64,000 nt of DNA from Deltaproteobacteria bacterium (GTDB taxonomy: Bacteria > Desulfobacterota > Syntrophia > Syntrophales > UBA2185). Of this stretch, positions 9,335 to 30,266 are shown one piece after another. Both the position numbers and the translations under genes were made by a program. Under the pieces are notes generated by a model, which was not told the DNA's origin, did no database searches, and was given only the letters and a program-made list of their open reading frames with translations. The stretch covers positions 1-64,000 of the forward strand of contig JAPLJS010000019.1 of the NCBI GenBank assembly GCA_026388545.1. The letters are read 5' to 3'. The first letter of the stretch is position 1; every line of letters begins with the position of its first letter.

Positions 9335-10117
9335 TTACCGCTTCAAGTTACTCACCATTTGAAGAATCTGGTCTGCCGTCTGTATTGCCTTCGTGTTGAT
9401 TTCATAAGCCCTCTGGCCTGCAATCATTTGAACCATCTCATCAACAACATTAACATTCGACATCTCGACCGCATTCTGCGTAATGGTGCCGAATCCTGTT
9501 TCCCCCGGATTTCCCTTTACAGGGGATCCGGAACTATCCGTTATATCGTAAAGGTTCCTGCCGATACTTCTCAGTCCGGCAGGATTGATAAAGCGGACGA
9601 GTTCAATTCTGCCGCTTGACAGTTTGTTTTCTACTTTATCCCTTGCATCCCACGTCCCATCAGGAAGTATCTGAAACTTGACAGCATCCTGCGGGATGGT
9701 CACCTGAGGATTCAGCTTTAGACCTTCAGGATTGACCAGAACACCGTCCTTGTTGGTCATGAAACTCCCCGCCTTTGAATAAACCGTGCGCCCGTTATCA
9801 TCGAGCTGGAAGAAACCATCACCCTCAATGACCCAGTCATAGGCACTGTCGGTCTGCTTGAAATCGCCCTGTGTAAACATCTTTTTCGTTGCCGATATTC
9901 TCGAACCCATACCGACCTCAACACCGACCGGCACCTGGTTCCCTCCCGCGGTCTCCGTACCGGCTTTCTTGGTTGCCTGATACAGCAAATCCTGAAATTC
10001 AGCCCTCGCTTTTTTAAAGCCCACCGTATTCACATTGGCCAAGTTATTCGCAACCACATCCAGATTAATCTGCTGTGATTCCATTCCGGTTGCTGCCGTC
10101 CATAAAGCCCTTAACAT
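9335..10117 (-). CDS. flgG: Distal rod protein FlgG
   Basis: FlgG builds the distal rod. The 260-residue sequence begins MLRALWTAATGMESQQINLD and has the rod/hook motif VVANNLANVNTVGFKKARAEF, the FQDLLY block, and the C-terminal NVNVVDEMVQMIAGQRAYEI typical of FlgG. Length equals the usual 260-262. A GGAGG site precedes the ATG at 10117. It follows flgF by 36 bases. Confidence 0.98.
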   Translation of the reverse strand: MLRALWTAATGMESQQINLDVVANNLANVNTVGFKKARAEFQDLLYQATKKAGTETAGGNQVPVGVEVGMGSRISATKKMFTQGDFKQTDSAYDWVIEGDGFFQLDDNGRTVYSKAGSFMTNKDGVLVNPEGLKLNPQVTIPQDAVKFQILPDGTWDARDKVENKLSSGRIELVRFINPAGLRSIGRNLYDITDSSGSPVKGNPGETGFGTITQNAVEMSNVNVVDEMVQMIAGQRAYEINTKAIQTADQILQMVSNLKR

Positions 10118-10153: not shown

Positions 10154-10849
10154 TCATACCCTCCCTATTTGAGATGTCGCCAATCTATCCTGTTCCGCTA
10201 TTGTCTGTATAATCTTCTGATAGACCTCCACGGAACGATGAATACCGATCATTTCAACCATCTCTTTTACGACCTGTACATTTGACATTTCAATATGCCC
10301 CTGCCTGACAACGGGGTCTTCTTTCTCCACTAAACCTGCTTTACCCGTATCTCTAAAAAGACACCCATCTACTTTATCGAGGGCCTGGGGATTTTTGAAA
10401 TTCACTATTTTCAAAGTATCGATCCGGTTGCCGTCCACTGCAACATCGCCTTTTTCGCTTATATTTATCGTACCATCGGGGAGTTTGATTTTTTGTCCGG
10501 ATTTACCAAGAACAAACGAACCATCCGCCGTAACCAGGTTGCTGTCTTTATCGAGTGTGAAATTGCCCTGCCTTGTATAAGTGGTTTCGATACCGGACTG
10601 AACGGCAAAAAATCCTTCGCCGTTGATAGCAACATCCATGCTATTTTCCGTCTTATGAATTGACCCGGGTGAATAGTCAACAACCACCTCAGGTATAAAC
10701 GTGACTGTTGCAGGATCCATTGCGCTATAAAACGCTCTCATTGATTTGAAACCGTGTGTATTAACGTTGGCGATATTATTTGCAATGTAATCAAGCTGGT
10801 CAACCCTGTCTATATAACCATTTGCCATCTCACCAATACTGTAAATCAT
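10154..10849 (-). CDS. flgF: Proximal rod protein FlgF
   Basis: FlgF is a proximal rod subunit. The 231-residue protein carries the D0 motif LDYIANNIANVNTHGFKSMR and the C-terminal NVQVVKEMVEMIGIHRSVEV, closely paralogous to the downstream FlgG. It is the first gene of flgF-G-A-H-I-J and has its own sigma-54 promoter 25-50 bases upstream. Confidence 0.95.
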   Translation of the reverse strand: MIYSIGEMANGYIDRVDQLDYIANNIANVNTHGFKSMRAFYSAMDPATVTFIPEVVVDYSPGSIHKTENSMDVAINGEGFFAVQSGIETTYTRQGNFTLDKDSNLVTADGSFVLGKSGQKIKLPDGTINISEKGDVAVDGNRIDTLKIVNFKNPQALDKVDGCLFRDTGKAGLVEKEDPVVRQGHIEMSNVQVVKEMVEMIGIHRSVEVYQKIIQTIAEQDRLATSQIGRV

Positions 10850-10883
10850 TCTTTTTCTTCCTCTGCGTTTTTATGCTTCATAA

Positions 10884-10902
10884 CTGCAATTCACATGCCA
10901 GT
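10884..10902 (-). promoter_or_regulatory. Sigma-54 promoter for flgF operon
   Basis: The minus strand reads TGGCATGTGAATTGCA with GG at 10899-10898 and GC at 10887-10886, exactly ten bases between them. This is a near-perfect match to TGGCACG-N4-TTGCA. The predicted start point near 10874 leaves a leader of about 25 bases before flgF. Confidence 0.88.
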
Positions 10903-11113
10903 AGGATGAAGCTCTAAATTCGAAGCACGAAATCAGAAACAGGCACAAACGTTCAAAATACAAATTATCAAAATTAAAAGGGTTGAATTTAATATTATGA
11001 ATTTGTTCAGGATTTAGATATTTGGATTTCGAATTTGAAATATGTCACCAAAATTTCAAATATGTTCGGATACTATTAGAGTTTGAAACTTTCTATTGGG
11101 GTGGGTAAAATCT
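10903..11113. other. AT-rich intergenic stretch with short degenerate repeats
   Basis: The rest of the gap between the FlhB-like gene and flgF has no plausible gene. It is rich in short related words such as AAATTCGAA, GAAATCAG and TTCGAATTTGAAAT, a low-complexity style that returns in other gaps of this window (22375-22455, 51585-51622). Confidence 0.5.
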
Positions 11114-11410
11114 TTATCGTCGGGAAAAATTTTCCCCTCTCCGCTTTTCATTGAGAGAATAGACAAAGGCGAGTATTTCAGCAACAGCCTTATACAGCAC
11201 AGGGGAAATCTGTTCATCAATTTCAAGTTTACTTAATATTTGAACGAGATTCGGATCTTCTTTTATCGGTATTCCGTTTTTCTTCGCTATACTGATTATT
11301 TTTTCCGCTATGGCGCCCCGCCCTTTAGCAGTCATTACGGGGGCTGCATCTTCCTGGGGATCATACTTCAAAGCAGCCGCAAGACGTATCTTTTCATCTT
11401 TCTTCGCCAT
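11114..11410 (-). CDS. Free-standing FlhB C-terminal-domain protein (FhlB/YlqH-like)
   Basis: The 98 residues align to the cytoplasmic domain of FlhB downstream of its autocleavage site: RLAAALKYDPQEDAAPVMTAKG, EKIISIAKKNGIPIKED and the end SPVLYKAVAEILAFVYSL match the full FlhB at 20345-21421 block for block. There is no membrane part, no linker and no NPTH-type motif, so the protein resembles a pre-cut FlhB-CC fragment. Homologous small proteins exist in other bacteria (YlqH in Bacillus subtilis) with no settled role. It is encoded 57 bases downstream of a FliK-like gene. A role in export-substrate switching is inference. Confidence 0.88.
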   Translation of the reverse strand: MAKKDEKIRLAAALKYDPQEDAAPVMTAKGRGAIAEKIISIAKKNGIPIKEDPNLVQILSKLEIDEQISPVLYKAVAEILAFVYSLNEKRRGENFSRR

Positions 11411-11467
11411 TATAATTTCCTCTGGTTACTCATTTCCCGATAACTTCCCAAAAGGCCTCTTGCATAT

Positions 11468-12619
11468 TTATACAAAGAGGTCGATTACGTCCCTGGCATA
11501 CAAAACCCGATCCTGGTAATAATCTATCTTCTCTTTGGCTAAATCACCCCCTGCGACACATTTCACCGTATAGATTTGGCAGCCCATGGTGGAAAGACTG
11601 TTCCTAAGTTCTTCCAGAAAGGACGATATAAAGTCACATACCTCCTGATCCAAACATTTGATAAGACAGTCGATCTTATCTCCTTTCAACTGGGCCTCGA
11701 TTATCATGTCGCCGAGGATATCCATACTCAAAAAGAACATTATGCGATATTGTCTTTTGTCTCGCTCTCCCCTGGGATTCCGGTCATATTCCACGAAAAT
11801 ATCACCTTTTCTGATACCGTCCTGGAAGAGAATGGGGATCTGGAATAAATACTTGCTCTCAGACTCCTGTAAAATGACATTGATAATCTGATGGGCTTCA
11901 ATCGTCTTAATGGATGAATCTAAATACTTGGAGAGGTTGTTCAGCAATATGCCGTCTTCATGAGCAAAGGACTCCTTACCCACTAACAGATTATGAAGAT
12001 CTTCAGATATTTTCATCAAAAGGCTCTTAAGGTTATGAGGGTCAAACCAGCTTTCACCTATACCTGATTTTCCCTCAAGAACCTGCCTCAATTGACTTTC
12101 CGTCAGCATACCAAGTTTGCCGAAATAATCTTTAATGTATTCGTTACCCTTTGTGTCCGGGGAAAGAAACAGCGATTTCAAAATTTTGAATATTTTCTGA
12201 AAATCTTCCTCAGGTAGATAGCGTATAATTTTTACGAGATTCCCCGTATTGAATTGCGTGACGGCCTCTGTTATCATCTGCGATATGGCATCAGGATTTG
12301 ACCTATGCCATCGCAGATAATCTGCGACCCTGAATTCCTCCAGGTTACCCCTCTCCAGAATACGTAAAATAACCTGAGGATGGAGACTTTCCACCTTTAT
12401 CCGAATCTTGTCGCCTGCATTGAGAGTTACTTCGGAATCTGCAGATAGATTGACCCCCTTAAGTGTTATCAGTATCCTCCGATCACTCAATTTCTCAACA
12501 ACGCCGGCTTCAAGTATTTCACCGATTGAAAAACCTGCGGAAGCTGCAGAACTTATATTATGGAATTGCGCTTGATTTAATTGATAGCTGGAAATTGTTG
12601 GAATATAAATAAGAGACAT
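11468..12619 (-). CDS. Second FliK-like (hook-length control-like) protein
   Basis: This 383-residue protein lacks a signal peptide. Residues about 30-95 contain a segment seen in long FliK-like proteins (GEILEAGVVEKLSDRRILI and TLNAGDKIRIKVESLHPQVI). The C-terminal 120 residues resemble the Flg_hook domain: SMDILGDMIIEAQLKGDKID, then a helix DFISSFLEELRNSLSTMG. The middle is helical and unrecognised. The true FliK is at 28686-30266, so this is an additional copy, placed directly before the free FlhB C-terminal domain. Identification as FliK-like is by pattern and needs a profile search (Flg_hook). Confidence 0.65.
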   Translation of the reverse strand: MSLIYIPTISSYQLNQAQFHNISSAASAGFSIGEILEAGVVEKLSDRRILITLKGVNLSADSEVTLNAGDKIRIKVESLHPQVILRILERGNLEEFRVADYLRWHRSNPDAISQMITEAVTQFNTGNLVKIIRYLPEEDFQKIFKILKSLFLSPDTKGNEYIKDYFGKLGMLTESQLRQVLEGKSGIGESWFDPHNLKSLLMKISEDLHNLLVGKESFAHEDGILLNNLSKYLDSSIKTIEAHQIINVILQESESKYLFQIPILFQDGIRKGDIFVEYDRNPRGERDKRQYRIMFFLSMDILGDMIIEAQLKGDKIDCLIKCLDQEVCDFISSFLEELRNSLSTMGCQIYTVKCVAGGDLAKEKIDYYQDRVLYARDVIDLFV

Positions 12620-12633
12620 CAGACATTCTCAGC

Positions 12634-13104
12634 TTAGACCCTATGTTTTGTTCTGTCTAGGTCGATGATCAGATCTATCTCTCCTTCCGTCAATTCCAAT
12701 CTCTGAGATATCTCCTTTTTCGTTAGACCCTGTTTGACCATAGTGATAACTTCCTCATATCTCTTATCCAATGTATCGCTATCAGTATGAGGGATACTTG
12801 CTTTAAGCTTTTCATATTCATTTTTTGATTCTTCAACTAATGCCCTTAACTTGCCTTCTTTCTCATCCAAGGCATAGGCAATCTCTTTCAGTGATTTTCT
12901 GCTTTCATTCATAGCTTCTATAAGGTAATTCGTAGAAGCGTTCGAATCATCAAGTAATTTTCTGAATTCCGTGAGGGTATTTTCATCCAGTCCACTGCGT
13001 CTTTTCTTTACTTCCCTGTTGACAATAACAATCAGAGCAATGACCGCAAAACACAATATAACGTCAGCAATCAATAGGCAGGTAAGGAGTAATTGTGTGC
13101 TCAT
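12634..13104 (-). CDS. Membrane-anchored coiled-coil protein, DUF2802-like
   Basis: The 156-residue protein has one N-terminal membrane helix (residues 4-27), a basic flank VNREVKKRR and a long coiled coil (about 40-105). The C-terminal helix-turn-helix-like segment reads VITMVKQGLTKKEISQRLEL, then TEGEIDLIIDL. Small proteins of this design, annotated DUF2802, occur in flagellar clusters of other Proteobacteria. It overlaps neither neighbour but lies only one base from the gene upstream and 14 from the FliK-like gene downstream, so co-expression is likely. Function unknown. Confidence 0.7.
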   Translation of the reverse strand: MSTQLLLTCLLIADVILCFAVIALIVIVNREVKKRRSGLDENTLTEFRKLLDDSNASTNYLIEAMNESRKSLKEIAYALDEKEGKLRALVEESKNEYEKLKASIPHTDSDTLDKRYEEVITMVKQGLTKKEISQRLELTEGEIDLIIDLDRTKHRV

Positions 13105-13105
13105 C

Positions 13106-13429
13106 TCAAACCTTTATATCAATTAACCCGCCATGTTCAACGTCAACCGCCGGATCACTACTTGCTTGCTTCACTTCGCTCTCTCCTATGACCTCTTCCT
13201 CAGCTTTTGCCTTTTTCTGATGTCTCTCTTTTTCCTGTTCATTTTTTATTTTAGATTTTTCCGCCTCTTCAGAACTCTTTACCGTCTCCTTTAGATGCCT
13301 TCTCTCCTCACACAACTGAACACTGAAGTATCTCTGCTGCATGTCCGAATGCTGCTGCTGTGCCTGTTGAACACGTTCCATTGAATTGGACTGTGTCAGT
13401 ATCTGTTGTAAATCAACAGCCCTAAGCAT
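13106..13429 (-). CDS. Hypothetical charged coiled-coil protein in flagellar operon
   Basis: A 107-residue protein with no family I recognise. The first 45 residues are Gln-rich (MERVQQAQQQHSDMQQ), the middle is a Lys/Glu-rich helix (EEAEKSKIKNEQEKERHQKK), and it ends in a conserved-looking tail HGGLIDIKV. The G-x-x-I-D-I-x-V ending is common at the C-terminus of small proteins preceding DUF2802 genes in flagellar loci, which supports it being real. It starts at 13429 and abuts the next gene. Confidence 0.6.
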   Translation of the reverse strand: MLRAVDLQQILTQSNSMERVQQAQQQHSDMQQRYFSVQLCEERRHLKETVKSSEEAEKSKIKNEQEKERHQKKAKAEEEVIGESEVKQASSDPAVDVEHGGLIDIKV

Positions 13430-13458
13430 TGTTTCTGAGCTCCTCTCTTTTCACCCTG

Positions 13459-13592
13459 AGAGACCTTTGAAAAATTGCATTTCGCGCTATTACGAGGAAT
13501 TTTTAGCCTCGAGGCAATACTCTGCATTTAATAAAAAGGTATTTATGTGCCCTCTTTTTCGCTCGCAACAATAATGTGAGATAAAGGTCTCT
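13459..13592. repeat. Inverted-repeat-bounded intergenic element
   Basis: AGAGACCTTT at 13459-13468 is repeated inverted as AAAGGTCTCT at 13583-13592. The 134-base interval fills most of the 219-base gap between two flagellar accessory genes and has no ORF. The layout resembles a small non-autonomous element, but I see no target-site duplication. Confidence 0.45.
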
Positions 13593-13648
13593 GAATCATT
13601 CATCGTCAAAATATGTTATAAACTTTAGTTGTTGAAACATTTCTTCTC

Positions 13649-14410
13649 CTACTGAGAAGGTATTGATATGGCAATCGTATTCAAACCGGAATCACTCTGT
13701 ATTTCAAAGAGGGCGCCCCATTTCTTCAACAGCAGGAAAGCACAGAGCAATCCCCCGCCTCTGGTCATCTCCAGAGAAGAATAATCTGCCTGTGATTCTT
13801 CAAGTAACAGCCTCTTTTGATCTTCAGATATTGGAGTTCCTTGATTCTGGATCTTCATGCATACATGACCATTGTCACATTGTGTTGAGATAGTAAATTC
13901 CTTTGAGGCGCTTTCCTTCATTGCATCCATCGAATGCCTGATCAATGCTGAAAGTGCCAGGGAATAATCAGCGGGGGCTCCTTTTACCTCCGGAAGTTCC
14001 CTATCGAGCTGCATCGTCTTTTTAATACTATGCTTGAAATCCAGATAAAAATCGAAAAACTTCATTTCGAGTTCGATAAGCTCAGATAAGTTTATTCTCT
14101 GTATTGTTGTATCACTGATTGCACAAAATTTTCCTGCCACATGCTGAAGCATACTGGAAAGTCTATCAGCCTCCCTCGCTATGGATTCAACATCATAGAC
14201 CAGTTTTTTGTTATCTTCCCAATAAGAGGCATCTCTTTCGACATCAGTTTTTTTCATGATTTCAGCTAATTTCCTCTGTAACAGTCTGGAACGGCCCATA
14301 ATCCCATTTAAAGGATTGGCAAAATTGTGAACGATGCCGGGAAGGAGTTCCTTAATAAATGTATCCTGAAACTCTTTTTCCACAATGCTGTATATATCCT
14401 GATGATCCAT
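13649..14410 (-). CDS. Degenerate histidine-kinase-like / phosphotransferase-like protein
   Basis: The 253-residue cytoplasmic protein has a DHp-type helix pair with the phosphoacceptor box PGIVHNFANPLNGIMG and then an ATPase-like domain. The catalytic boxes are eroded. The N-box position reads LIRHSMDAM, where kinases have Asn-Ala; the DxGxG box reads IQNQGTPI; the G2 box reads TRGGGLLCAFLL. There is no membrane helix or sensor. Such an intact His with a poor ATP site recalls histidine phosphotransferases of the Spo0B/ChpT type. It lies among flagellar accessory genes and could relay phosphate to a response regulator; that is inference. An active atypical kinase is the alternative. Confidence 0.7.
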   Translation of the reverse strand: MDHQDIYSIVEKEFQDTFIKELLPGIVHNFANPLNGIMGRSRLLQRKLAEIMKKTDVERDASYWEDNKKLVYDVESIAREADRLSSMLQHVAGKFCAISDTTIQRINLSELIELEMKFFDFYLDFKHSIKKTMQLDRELPEVKGAPADYSLALSALIRHSMDAMKESASKEFTISTQCDNGHVCMKIQNQGTPISEDQKRLLLEESQADYSSLEMTRGGGLLCAFLLLKKWGALFEIQSDSGLNTIAISIPSQ

Positions 14411-20344: not shown

Positions 20345-21421
20345 TTACACCGCTACCCTTTTTTTCTTTAAGCCATAAACATACGCCAATACTTCCGCAA
20401 CGGCTTTGTATAAATTTTCCGGTATTACCTCATTCATATTTGCCACCTTATACAATACGCGTGCCAATGGCTTGTTCTCGACAACAGGCACATTGTTCCT
20501 TCTGGCAATTTCCCTTATTTTTTCAGCTATGAGTCCTACTCCCTTGGCAACAACAACGGGAGCAAACATCTTTAACTGATCATACTCCAGAGCGACAGCT
20601 ATATGGTCGGGGTTCGTGATCACGACGTCCGCCTTGGGAACACGCGCCATCATCCGCTTACGCGCCATTTCCCTCTGGATACGCCTCACCCTTGCCTTTA
20701 TAAGTGGATCCCCATCTACCTGCTTGTACTCATCCTTTACCTCCTGCCGTGACATTTTGAGGCCCCTTTCGTGTTCCCAACGCTGATACACGTAATCCAG
20801 GATTGCCAGAACTATCAACACCCACGAGGTCCGTAAGATAATTTTAAATGAAATCCGCCCCATATAAACCATTATATCCCCAATACTCTCATCCATCAGG
20901 GACGGAAGGTTTTCAATTTCTCCGCTTACCGTTATATAGGCAACATACCCCACGATGCATAGTTTCAGGATACTCTTTGCCAATTCAGCAAATGATTTAA
21001 GGGAGAATAACCTCTGAAATCCATTGATTGGATCAATTTTAGAAAACTGAGGCGTTAGTGCCTCTGTAGAAACTACAAAACCTACCTGGACGAAATTGGC
21101 TAAAAAACCCGCAATCAGGACGGTCAAAAGAAGCGGCGCAATGAGGATAAAAAATTCATAGAGCCAATCTACGGCAAGCGCTTGAATATTATTGGTGTTA
21201 ATGAGTAATGTGCCTGATTCCTTTAGAAAACCGCTTATGAGACCCATCAGCTTCTTAACCAGACGGGTGGAGTCAAAATAAAAATACGTCAAACAAGCTA
21301 ACAATATAGCGGCCGAGGCTACTTCCTGGCTTTTTGCGACCTGACCCTTTTTTCTTGCCTCTTCCCGTCGCTTCGGCGTCGCTTGCTCTGTTCGTTCCTG
21401 ATCTTTATCGTTTTCCGCCAT
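20345..21421 (-). CDS. flhB: Flagellar export gate protein FlhB, with NPDH cleavage motif
   Basis: FlhB sits in the export gate, and its autocleavage allows the switch from rod/hook to filament substrates. The 358-residue protein opens KDQERTEQATPKRREEARKKGQVAKS, has four membrane helices and ends in a cytoplasmic domain with KMMARVPKADVVITNPDHIAV. The usual NPTH motif reads NPDH (N270-P271-D272-H273), with Thr replaced by Asp. Asn and Pro, the cleaved pair, and His are kept, so autocleavage remains plausible. The C-terminal domain is paralogous to the free protein at 11114-11410. Confidence 0.97.
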   Translation of the reverse strand: MAENDKDQERTEQATPKRREEARKKGQVAKSQEVASAAILLACLTYFYFDSTRLVKKLMGLISGFLKESGTLLINTNNIQALAVDWLYEFFILIAPLLLTVLIAGFLANFVQVGFVVSTEALTPQFSKIDPINGFQRLFSLKSFAELAKSILKLCIVGYVAYITVSGEIENLPSLMDESIGDIMVYMGRISFKIILRTSWVLIVLAILDYVYQRWEHERGLKMSRQEVKDEYKQVDGDPLIKARVRRIQREMARKRMMARVPKADVVITNPDHIAVALEYDQLKMFAPVVVAKGVGLIAEKIREIARRNNVPVVENKPLARVLYKVANMNEVIPENLYKAVAEVLAYVYGLKKKRVAV

Positions 21422-28685: not shown

Positions 28686-30266
28686 TTATGCAAATAAACT
28701 GATAACACCCAAAGAGGGATCATTTAACTCATTCCCGCCTGACGGCAATATTTGAATGGGAGAATTATCCTCTTTTGTGTTATCTCTTTTTCCCCGCCCT
28801 TCCTCAAAGAAGGCGCCGCCCCCGGGCTGGAATCCCGGATTACCGTCATAAGATCTTTCCTGGACAAGAACTTCAAAACGATCGATGTTTAACCCCTGAC
28901 CTTGAAGGGCGGTTTTTAATTGGTCGAGATTGGTGTGCAATACCTGCTTCACATCATGATTGTCTGCAATCAGTACCATCCTGACCATGTCGTTATGAAC
29001 CCTGACATCCATATTCAGTGTTCCGAGATTAGGCGGCTCCAGCGTGATGACAATCCTGCCGGATCGATTCTTCATCATATTCGCGGCGCCGTCCTCAATC
29101 TGCTCCATAATGTCCTGAAACTGAAGAGGCGCAATATCACCATTCATATTTGTCCCCGAACTATTCCAAACACCTTTTACCCCGGAGTAATCAGCATTAG
29201 CCGTCCAGAGCGTGGTATCACTTTTCCCGGCAAGGGGTTCATTATCTATTCCTTCAACAGACTTTTCTGATTTGAACACTTCTGAGAAAAGATTTTTATT
29301 ATTTTGCATCTCTTCACTTGCTTCATTCAGCCGCCCCGTTGAAATTGAATTTTCTTTTACGCTCTCTAGCTTCTGTTGCTCACTCTTTAACAGTATCTCC
29401 TGCCCTTTCGGATCAGATGATACTTTCTTACTACTTACTCCCTTGATATCGAGCTCCTTCGAAATGTCTCTTTCACCATCATACTTTTGATCTTCCTTTT
29501 CATCACCGGAGCGGGAAATTCTCATTTCTTCAGATACATTCTTCTTGGCGAGTTTATTACTCTTCAAACCGTCGGCTGATAGTGCCCCTAAATCACGGGC
29601 GAGGTCATCTGAGAGCATCGTATCGACTGAAGGTGACTTCTCCACTTTTCCAAATCCACTGACTCCCTTCTTTAACGATAATGTACTTTCCTTTTCTATC
29701 GCGGATCTAATTTGCGAACTCTCACTACCATGTCCAGGAGATTCATCCGGCAGATTCAATGCATCGCCTTTGTCGATACTTCCTTCACCCATGGGGGATT
29801 GAGTTTTTCCTGATTTACCAAGGAGTTCTTTGCCCGTTTTTTTAGCTTCCGCAACTCCCCCCGATGCTAATTCTTCTGGATTGAGTTTCATATTTTTCTC
29901 AAAAGGTACCTGATGTTGAAACGCAATCGCATCTCCATTCATTTCTTTTGTTCCCTTTCGGGACCAGTACCCGCGGCCAACCTTAACACCAGCCAATCGC
30001 CCCTTTATCTCATCTTTCCCGGTTGTCAATTCTGCCTGGCAACTTACAGAACCTTCCTTTTCGGTATCGCCTTTCTCAATCGAAAAAACCGTGCCTTTTT
30101 GCTTCATTATGCTGGCAAATGAACCCACACCTCCAATGATGTCAAAGAGGTCTGCACCATTTTGCTTTCCTTTCGATAGCTCCTTAATTCTATTGGACAC
30201 ACCCTGAGACGTTGGTTGATCTTGACTTCCGCCACTTAATGTCAACTGTTGCATTGAAGTATCCAT
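28686..30266 (-). CDS. fliK: Flagellar hook-length control protein FliK
   Basis: FliK measures hook length and triggers the FlhB substrate switch. The 526-residue protein is mostly a low-complexity Ser/Lys/Glu/Gly-rich region, as in long FliK proteins. The C-terminal Flg_hook domain reads GRIVITLEPPNLGTLNMDVR, then VLHTNLDQLKTALQGQGLNI and FEVLVQ. ATG 30266 has GGAG six bases upstream. It heads fliK-flgD-flgE, just downstream of its own sigma-54 promoter. Confidence 0.92.
   Translation of the reverse strand: MDTSMQQLTLSGGSQDQPTSQGVSNRIKELSKGKQNGADLFDIIGGVGSFASIMKQKGTVFSIEKGDTEKEGSVSCQAELTTGKDEIKGRLAGVKVGRGYWSRKGTKEMNGDAIAFQHQVPFEKNMKLNPEELASGGVAEAKKTGKELLGKSGKTQSPMGEGSIDKGDALNLPDESPGHGSESSQIRSAIEKESTLSLKKGVSGFGKVEKSPSVDTMLSDDLARDLGALSADGLKSNKLAKKNVSEEMRISRSGDEKEDQKYDGERDISKELDIKGVSSKKVSSDPKGQEILLKSEQQKLESVKENSISTGRLNEASEEMQNNKNLFSEVFKSEKSVEGIDNEPLAGKSDTTLWTANADYSGVKGVWNSSGTNMNGDIAPLQFQDIMEQIEDGAANMMKNRSGRIVITLEPPNLGTLNMDVRVHNDMVRMVLIADNHDVKQVLHTNLDQLKTALQGQGLNIDRFEVLVQERSYDGNPGFQPGGGAFFEEGRGKRDNTKEDNSPIQILPSGGNELNDPSLGVISLFA

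Follow-up and report, generated by a model that had tools for sequence, protein, structure and literature searches.

Two adjacent genes on the minus strand of the window (the whole 64,000-nucleotide stretch that was analysed) encode pared-down second versions of the two proteins that partner in the flagellar export switch. FliK2 (11468–12619) is a 383-aa FliK-like protein, and flhX (11114–11410), 57 bp away on the same strand, encodes a 98-aa free protein resembling the C-terminal domain of FlhB (FlhB-CC), without an NPxH site. A preliminary description of this DNA had proposed a paired role for the two, which comparative sequence evidence makes very likely because their linkage is conserved and their co-occurrence is near-strict. 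Both open reading frames lie side by side where that description placed them. What it missed is the age of the FlhX family, which is no copy of the local FlhB, and the upstream reach of the unit, which takes in a SwrB-like gene and a short gene, here called mini-tail, whose product ends in the same FliK-type tail.

The canonical partners are also present, as had been noted. Native full-length FlhB (20345–21421, minus strand) scores over the TIGR00328 cut-off and carries the cleavage motif N270-P-D-H273, and canonical FliK (28686–30266, minus strand) is a 526-aa protein with a Flg_hook match at 1.4e-18 and the tail VISLFA. Beyond the pair, the genome contains exactly one Flg_hook protein and one PF01312 protein, namely this FliK and this FlhB, each the sole other member of its family.

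FlhX is an FlhB-CC domain of 98 aa that lacks both hallmarks of FlhB, the membrane domain with its transmembrane part and the NPxH autocleavage site. Its match to PF01312 (E = 2.2e-21) covers only profile positions 261–335 of 335. By BLASTP it aligns with residues 273–355 of the window's FlhB at 49% identity over 83 aa, starting at H273, the last residue of the cleavage motif. The earlier statement that this protein is FlhB-like only past the cleavage site is thus confirmed. The NPxH motif was absent from all FlhX sequences scanned (0/108). An FlhX profile matches the FlhB-CC crystal structures 3b1s (8e-23) and 3b0z (2e-20), and it is on sequence similarity to these solved domains that the fold of FlhX rests, because its AF2 prediction was poor (pLDDT 59.5, 23 alignment rows).

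The best family match of the window's FlhX is TIGR00789 flhB_rel (E = 2.3e-29), at 101.4 bits against a cut-off of 117.35 bits. That cut-off is passed by FlhX of two Aquificota and one Campylobacterota and is reached by no genome sampled from the window's own order or phylum, so it misses this branch. In a tree built on 84 columns, with root unknown, FlhX from several phyla (three of them passing the TIGR00789 cut-off) were compared with FlhB fragments; the 41 FlhX and 42 FlhB fragments fell on opposite sides of one branch with support 99/97. This split argues against a recent origin of FlhX by duplication of the local FlhB and marks it as an ancient family in its own right. The family has its own conserved positions (D21, I39, D52, V56 and F82, plus a one-residue deletion), and the core residues that it has in common with FlhB-CC are also conserved. 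Among the conserved residues, A23, P24, A77 and L80 align with residues of the FlhB pocket, which we take to be A286, P287, A341 and L344 in Salmonella FlhB.

FliK2 is more divergent from its namesake. The preliminary description had likened its C-terminal part to the Flg_hook domain, and the HMM search that it proposed gave a weak match for the window copy (11546–11761, minus strand, residues 287–358; E = 0.0015, 18.8 bits against a cut-off of 29.8, and 21.8 bits, likewise sub-threshold, in a second search). Because of this weakness, the window sequence by itself would not prove Flg_hook identity. The resemblance is carried by the orthologues and the predicted fold. Flg_hook was matched in 21 of 22 FliK2 orthologues (best 1.1e-11), many orthologues from the order exceed the cut-off with up to 47 bits, and with Pfam only and no custom profile, FliK2 passes it in Campylobacterota, Aquificota, Methylomirabilota and one unclassified bacterium. 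A PDB sequence search with FliK2 returned nothing but a designed protein at E = 0.5.

AF2 modelling of FliK2 (56 sequences, mean pLDDT 84.7) predicted a fold with mostly good confidence between residues 30 and 375 or thereabouts. The predicted layout comprises an N-terminal beta-domain (35–89), a helical middle (93–254), an alpha/beta switch domain (256–356) and the tail VIDLFV. A Foldseek comparison of the model brought up the switch domain of PscP (5cuk; prob 1.00, rmsd 2.6, E = 0.12) and FliK-C (2rrl; prob 0.98, E = 0.28); these E-values are poor because the two structures match just one domain of the model. Taking orthologue sequences and model together, the C-terminal domain of FliK2 is best read as a FliK-type switch domain. 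The composition of FliK2 is less disorder-prone than that of FliK, and it is predicted to be folded almost throughout and not a typical disordered ruler.

The very end of the protein is FliK-like as well. The 3′ end of the gene (11468–11485, minus strand) encodes a FliK-type C-terminal pentapeptide, IDLFV, and the stop codon; the equivalent residues are VDIFA in E. coli FliK and ISLFA in the window's FliK. A pentapeptide of this type ends 56 of 67 FliK2 proteins versus 3 of 366 other ORFs, and two of those three are FliK2 that the profile had missed.

The neighbourhood survey that the preliminary description called for used one genome per species and yielded at least 521 confirmed FlhX loci. 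The best 80 of these were examined; they span about ten phyla, and some are MAGs that are possibly misbinned. In 65 of these best 80 loci the gene directly preceding FlhX, on the same strand, is FliK2, and in 23 of the 80 the two genes overlap by exactly 4 nt. The pair was seen in Thermodesulfobacteriota, Bacillota, Nitrospirota, Myxococcota, Campylobacterota, Aquificota and others, and this recurrence of the same pair across phyla puts it far beyond chance. A recognised FliK2 directly upstream was absent in the other 15 of the 80. Three loci (L073, L104, L106) have FlhX beside flgF-flgG-flgA-flgH, without a recognised FliK2 upstream. Apparent FliK2-FlhX fusions at four places (L053, G204, G198, G191) were discarded, since the long ORFs are spurious upstream extensions with FliK2 in another frame. 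Among Bacillota, our count gave a short FlhX in roughly 59 of the 86 genomes with any match; one Bacillota genome has an FlhX match (G107:C1:195769-196005) and no FlhB match.

Co-occurrence was examined within the window's relatives. Across 60 related genomes, nearly all of those with FlhB also have FlhX, usually about 9 kb away, and in at least one of those without FlhX (G006) the contig ends before its expected place. To count as FliK2, a match had to extend into the N-terminal region, for which FliK has no counterpart. On this basis, among 36 flagellated genomes of the phylum, FliK2 was present in 27 of 27 genomes with FlhX versus 1 of 9 without it (Fisher 3e-7, in a test that ignores shared ancestry). 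Both FlhX states occur within a single family (f49). The sole exception is G218, where mini-tail, SwrB-like and FliK2 genes are present (L231, 6929-9668) and no FlhX was detected. Another genome, G208, is not a case of missing FlhX: its FlhX ORF reads as 360 aa, but it has an FlhX-type match with FliK2 directly upstream. Several co-occurring genomes have the two genes in separate places; among them, FliK2 remains beside the SwrB-like gene in G200 and G209, and FlhX beside flgF-flgG in G200. Flagella in general do not require the pair, since some flagellated genomes have neither gene.

The usual order in Thermodesulfobacteriota is mini-tail, SwrB-like, FliK2, FlhX, flgF, flgG, flgA, flgH. Directly upstream of FliK2 in the window is the SwrB-like gene (12634–13104, minus strand; DUF6115 1.9e-9, DUF2802 1e-7), whose product has an N-terminal hydrophobic stretch, a coiled coil and an HTH-like end; in the window's order this gene is a conserved neighbour, usually right before FliK2. 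It is preceded by mini-tail (13106–13429, minus strand), which is kept in that position through most of the order and encodes a 107-aa protein with no credible Pfam or NCBIfam match. This protein ends GGLIDIKV, a FliK-type terminal motif, and is the third protein with such a tail. A histidine-kinase-like protein is encoded in the same flagellar block (13649–14410, minus strand; HisKA just below cut-off, HATPase weak). On the other side, flhX is followed by the distal rod genes flgF (10154–10849, minus strand; TIGR02490 over cut-off) and flgG (9335–10117, minus strand; TIGR02488 over cut-off).

In the window, FliK2 and FlhX trail the fliR-flhB-flhA-flhF-flhG-fliA block, and gene spacing suggests that they belong to the same operon. 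Between flhX and flgF lies the sole exact match in the window to the sigma-54 promoter consensus TGGCAT-N5-TTGCA (10885–10900, minus strand). An exact site downstream of flhX was likewise found in 28 of 70 loci tested, against a density of 0.023 per 700 bp, and flgF therefore probably starts its own transcription unit. Most of the fliK loci retrieved also have exact sigma-54 sites, in several cases immediately before fliK; the window's fliK has a site with one mismatch. No Rfam elements were found in 10700–13800, and generic sigma-70 and terminator scans showed no clear excess over shuffles.

What might the pair do? In Salmonella, the C-terminal fragment of FlhB holds the export gate in its early mode and its loss depends on FliK, whose last five residues are proposed to act on the fragment and drive that loss (PMC13344023). 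A free copy of the fragment with a FliK-like partner that has the same five-residue ending suggests a unit acting on this step. The reading that we favour, at somewhat less than even confidence, is that FliK2 and FlhX are a dedicated pair in which FliK2 binds FlhX and FlhX holds the gate in rod/hook mode. The switch domain and terminal pentapeptide of FliK2 would bind FlhX, and FliK2 would control when FlhX is free. FlhX would dock on the gate, replacing or competing with the native FlhB fragment, for which HP1575 offers a precedent; it could do so because it keeps the FlhB core and has neither membrane part nor cleavage site. The most likely outcome would be that the gate stays in rod/hook mode. 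The pair is encoded behind export-apparatus genes, apart from the sigma-54-type rod/hook units. We found no report of a FliK2-FlhX interaction in the open-access papers that the search covered. The preliminary description had proposed exchange or competition with the native fragment, which remains plausible given the conserved FlhB core of FlhX and the switch fold and pentapeptide of FliK2. Its further proposal, a second switching event, is not established: FliK2 is predicted to be folded and not ruler-like, and it trails the flhB-flhA-fliA block, unlike several fliK genes of the order, which have their own sigma-54 site.

As a rival explanation, which we regard as rather unlikely, such a second switching event would come from FliK2 as a further secreted switch protein, flipping the gate at a different step, for example from rod to hook, through FlhX or FlhB. 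It would account for the retained switch fold and pentapeptide and for the many loci in which FlhX adjoins flgF-flgG. The N-terminus of C. jejuni Cj0849c is able to route a reporter through the flagellar type III export system (PMC2764114). From locus numbers only, Cj0849c is probably the gene beside flhX (Cj0848c); if it is FliK2, this reporter export would fit a secreted FliK2 better than a cytosolic partner. Against the rival, FliK2 of the order is predicted to be folded nearly throughout and is less disorder-prone than FliK, and in Bacillota and most Nitrospirota the pair does not adjoin flgF/flgG. It is improbable, in our estimate, that FlhX is instead a decoy soaking up the FliK C-terminus, or that FliK2 occupies FlhB, so that early switching is prevented. 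The core residues that FlhX shares with FlhB-CC and the tail common to FliK and FliK2 are both compatible with this, but it does not account for the retention of a specific FliK2 alongside FlhX in 27/27 genomes.

The kinship of FlhX with FlhB-CC would suit a mere spare FlhB-CC, as HP1575 reportedly is according to the title of a 2006 paper by Wand et al. (cited in PMC2923134), with FliK2 an ordinary, redundant second FliK. FlhX, however, forms an old clade apart from FlhB, with a set of conserved positions of its own, and is not an interchangeable copy of the local FlhB, and this simple redundancy strikes us as quite improbable. Very improbable is a docking helper that carries rod/hook subunits in the cytosol by means of an FlhB-like gate-recognition pocket. 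The FlhX residues aligned with that pocket, taking the numbering given above, are conserved, and FlhX is linked to flgF/flgG in Thermodesulfobacteriota; the role of the pocket in FlhB comes from PMC8983047. Yet the flgF linkage is not general, and such a helper leaves the FliK2 switch domain and tail without a role. Returning to the dedicated pair, we think it unlikely, though worth stating, that FlhX re-docks on gates that have lost the native fragment and that FliK2 loads it there or takes it off. The switch, described as irreversible in Salmonella, could then be reset or re-armed in many phyla.

Timed secretion has one of its models in the flagellar export switch. In many bacteria a separate gene encodes the FlhB fragment as a free protein, accompanied by a FliK-like partner that is predicted to be folded. 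Should this pair act on the gate, the one-way picture from Salmonella would be incomplete for many phyla. B. subtilis ylqH and its neighbour, a putative FliK2 gene, offer a tractable system. FlhX itself is a known family (HP1575, YlqH, TIGR00789). Together with the SwrB-like and mini-tail genes next to it, the pair seems not to have been described in the open-access literature searched, and may be described elsewhere; new relative to what we found there are the FliK2 family with its predicted fold, the co-distribution of FliK2 and FlhX, the common tail and the wider cassette.

Among known systems, TIGR00789 flhB_rel models the same domain as FlhX, with the window protein below its cut-off (101 of 117 bits), and YlqH of B. 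subtilis and COG2257 presumably represent the same family. By description, HP1575/FlhX of Helicobacter and Campylobacter is of the same kind, a free FlhB C-terminal domain without a membrane part. HP1575 is called an FlhB C-terminal homologue and "spare part" in the title of Wand et al. 2006, cited in PMC2923134; the HP1575/FlhX literature that we found leaves the partner FliK2 undiscussed. In Nitratiruptor, flhX-fliK are named together in a passing remark, without analysis of the partner or the pair (PMC9321776). Actinobacteria without FlgFG are also without FlhX (PMC10746217). The gene upstream of FliK2 resembles SwrB (YlxL), a membrane-anchored export activator of B. subtilis (PMC4526659), in its layout and its DUF6115/DUF2802 matches only. 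FliK/SctP proteins (YscP, PscP; PF02120) have the switch-domain fold that is predicted for FliK2, and FliK also the terminal pentapeptide, but they have a disordered ruler where FliK2 is predicted to have a folded N-terminal beta-domain and a helical middle; unlike them, FliK2 sits with FlhX behind export-gate genes. The FlhB-CCD of Salmonella (PMC13344023) is the same domain as FlhX, but it is cleaved from FlhB, whereas FlhX has a gene of its own.
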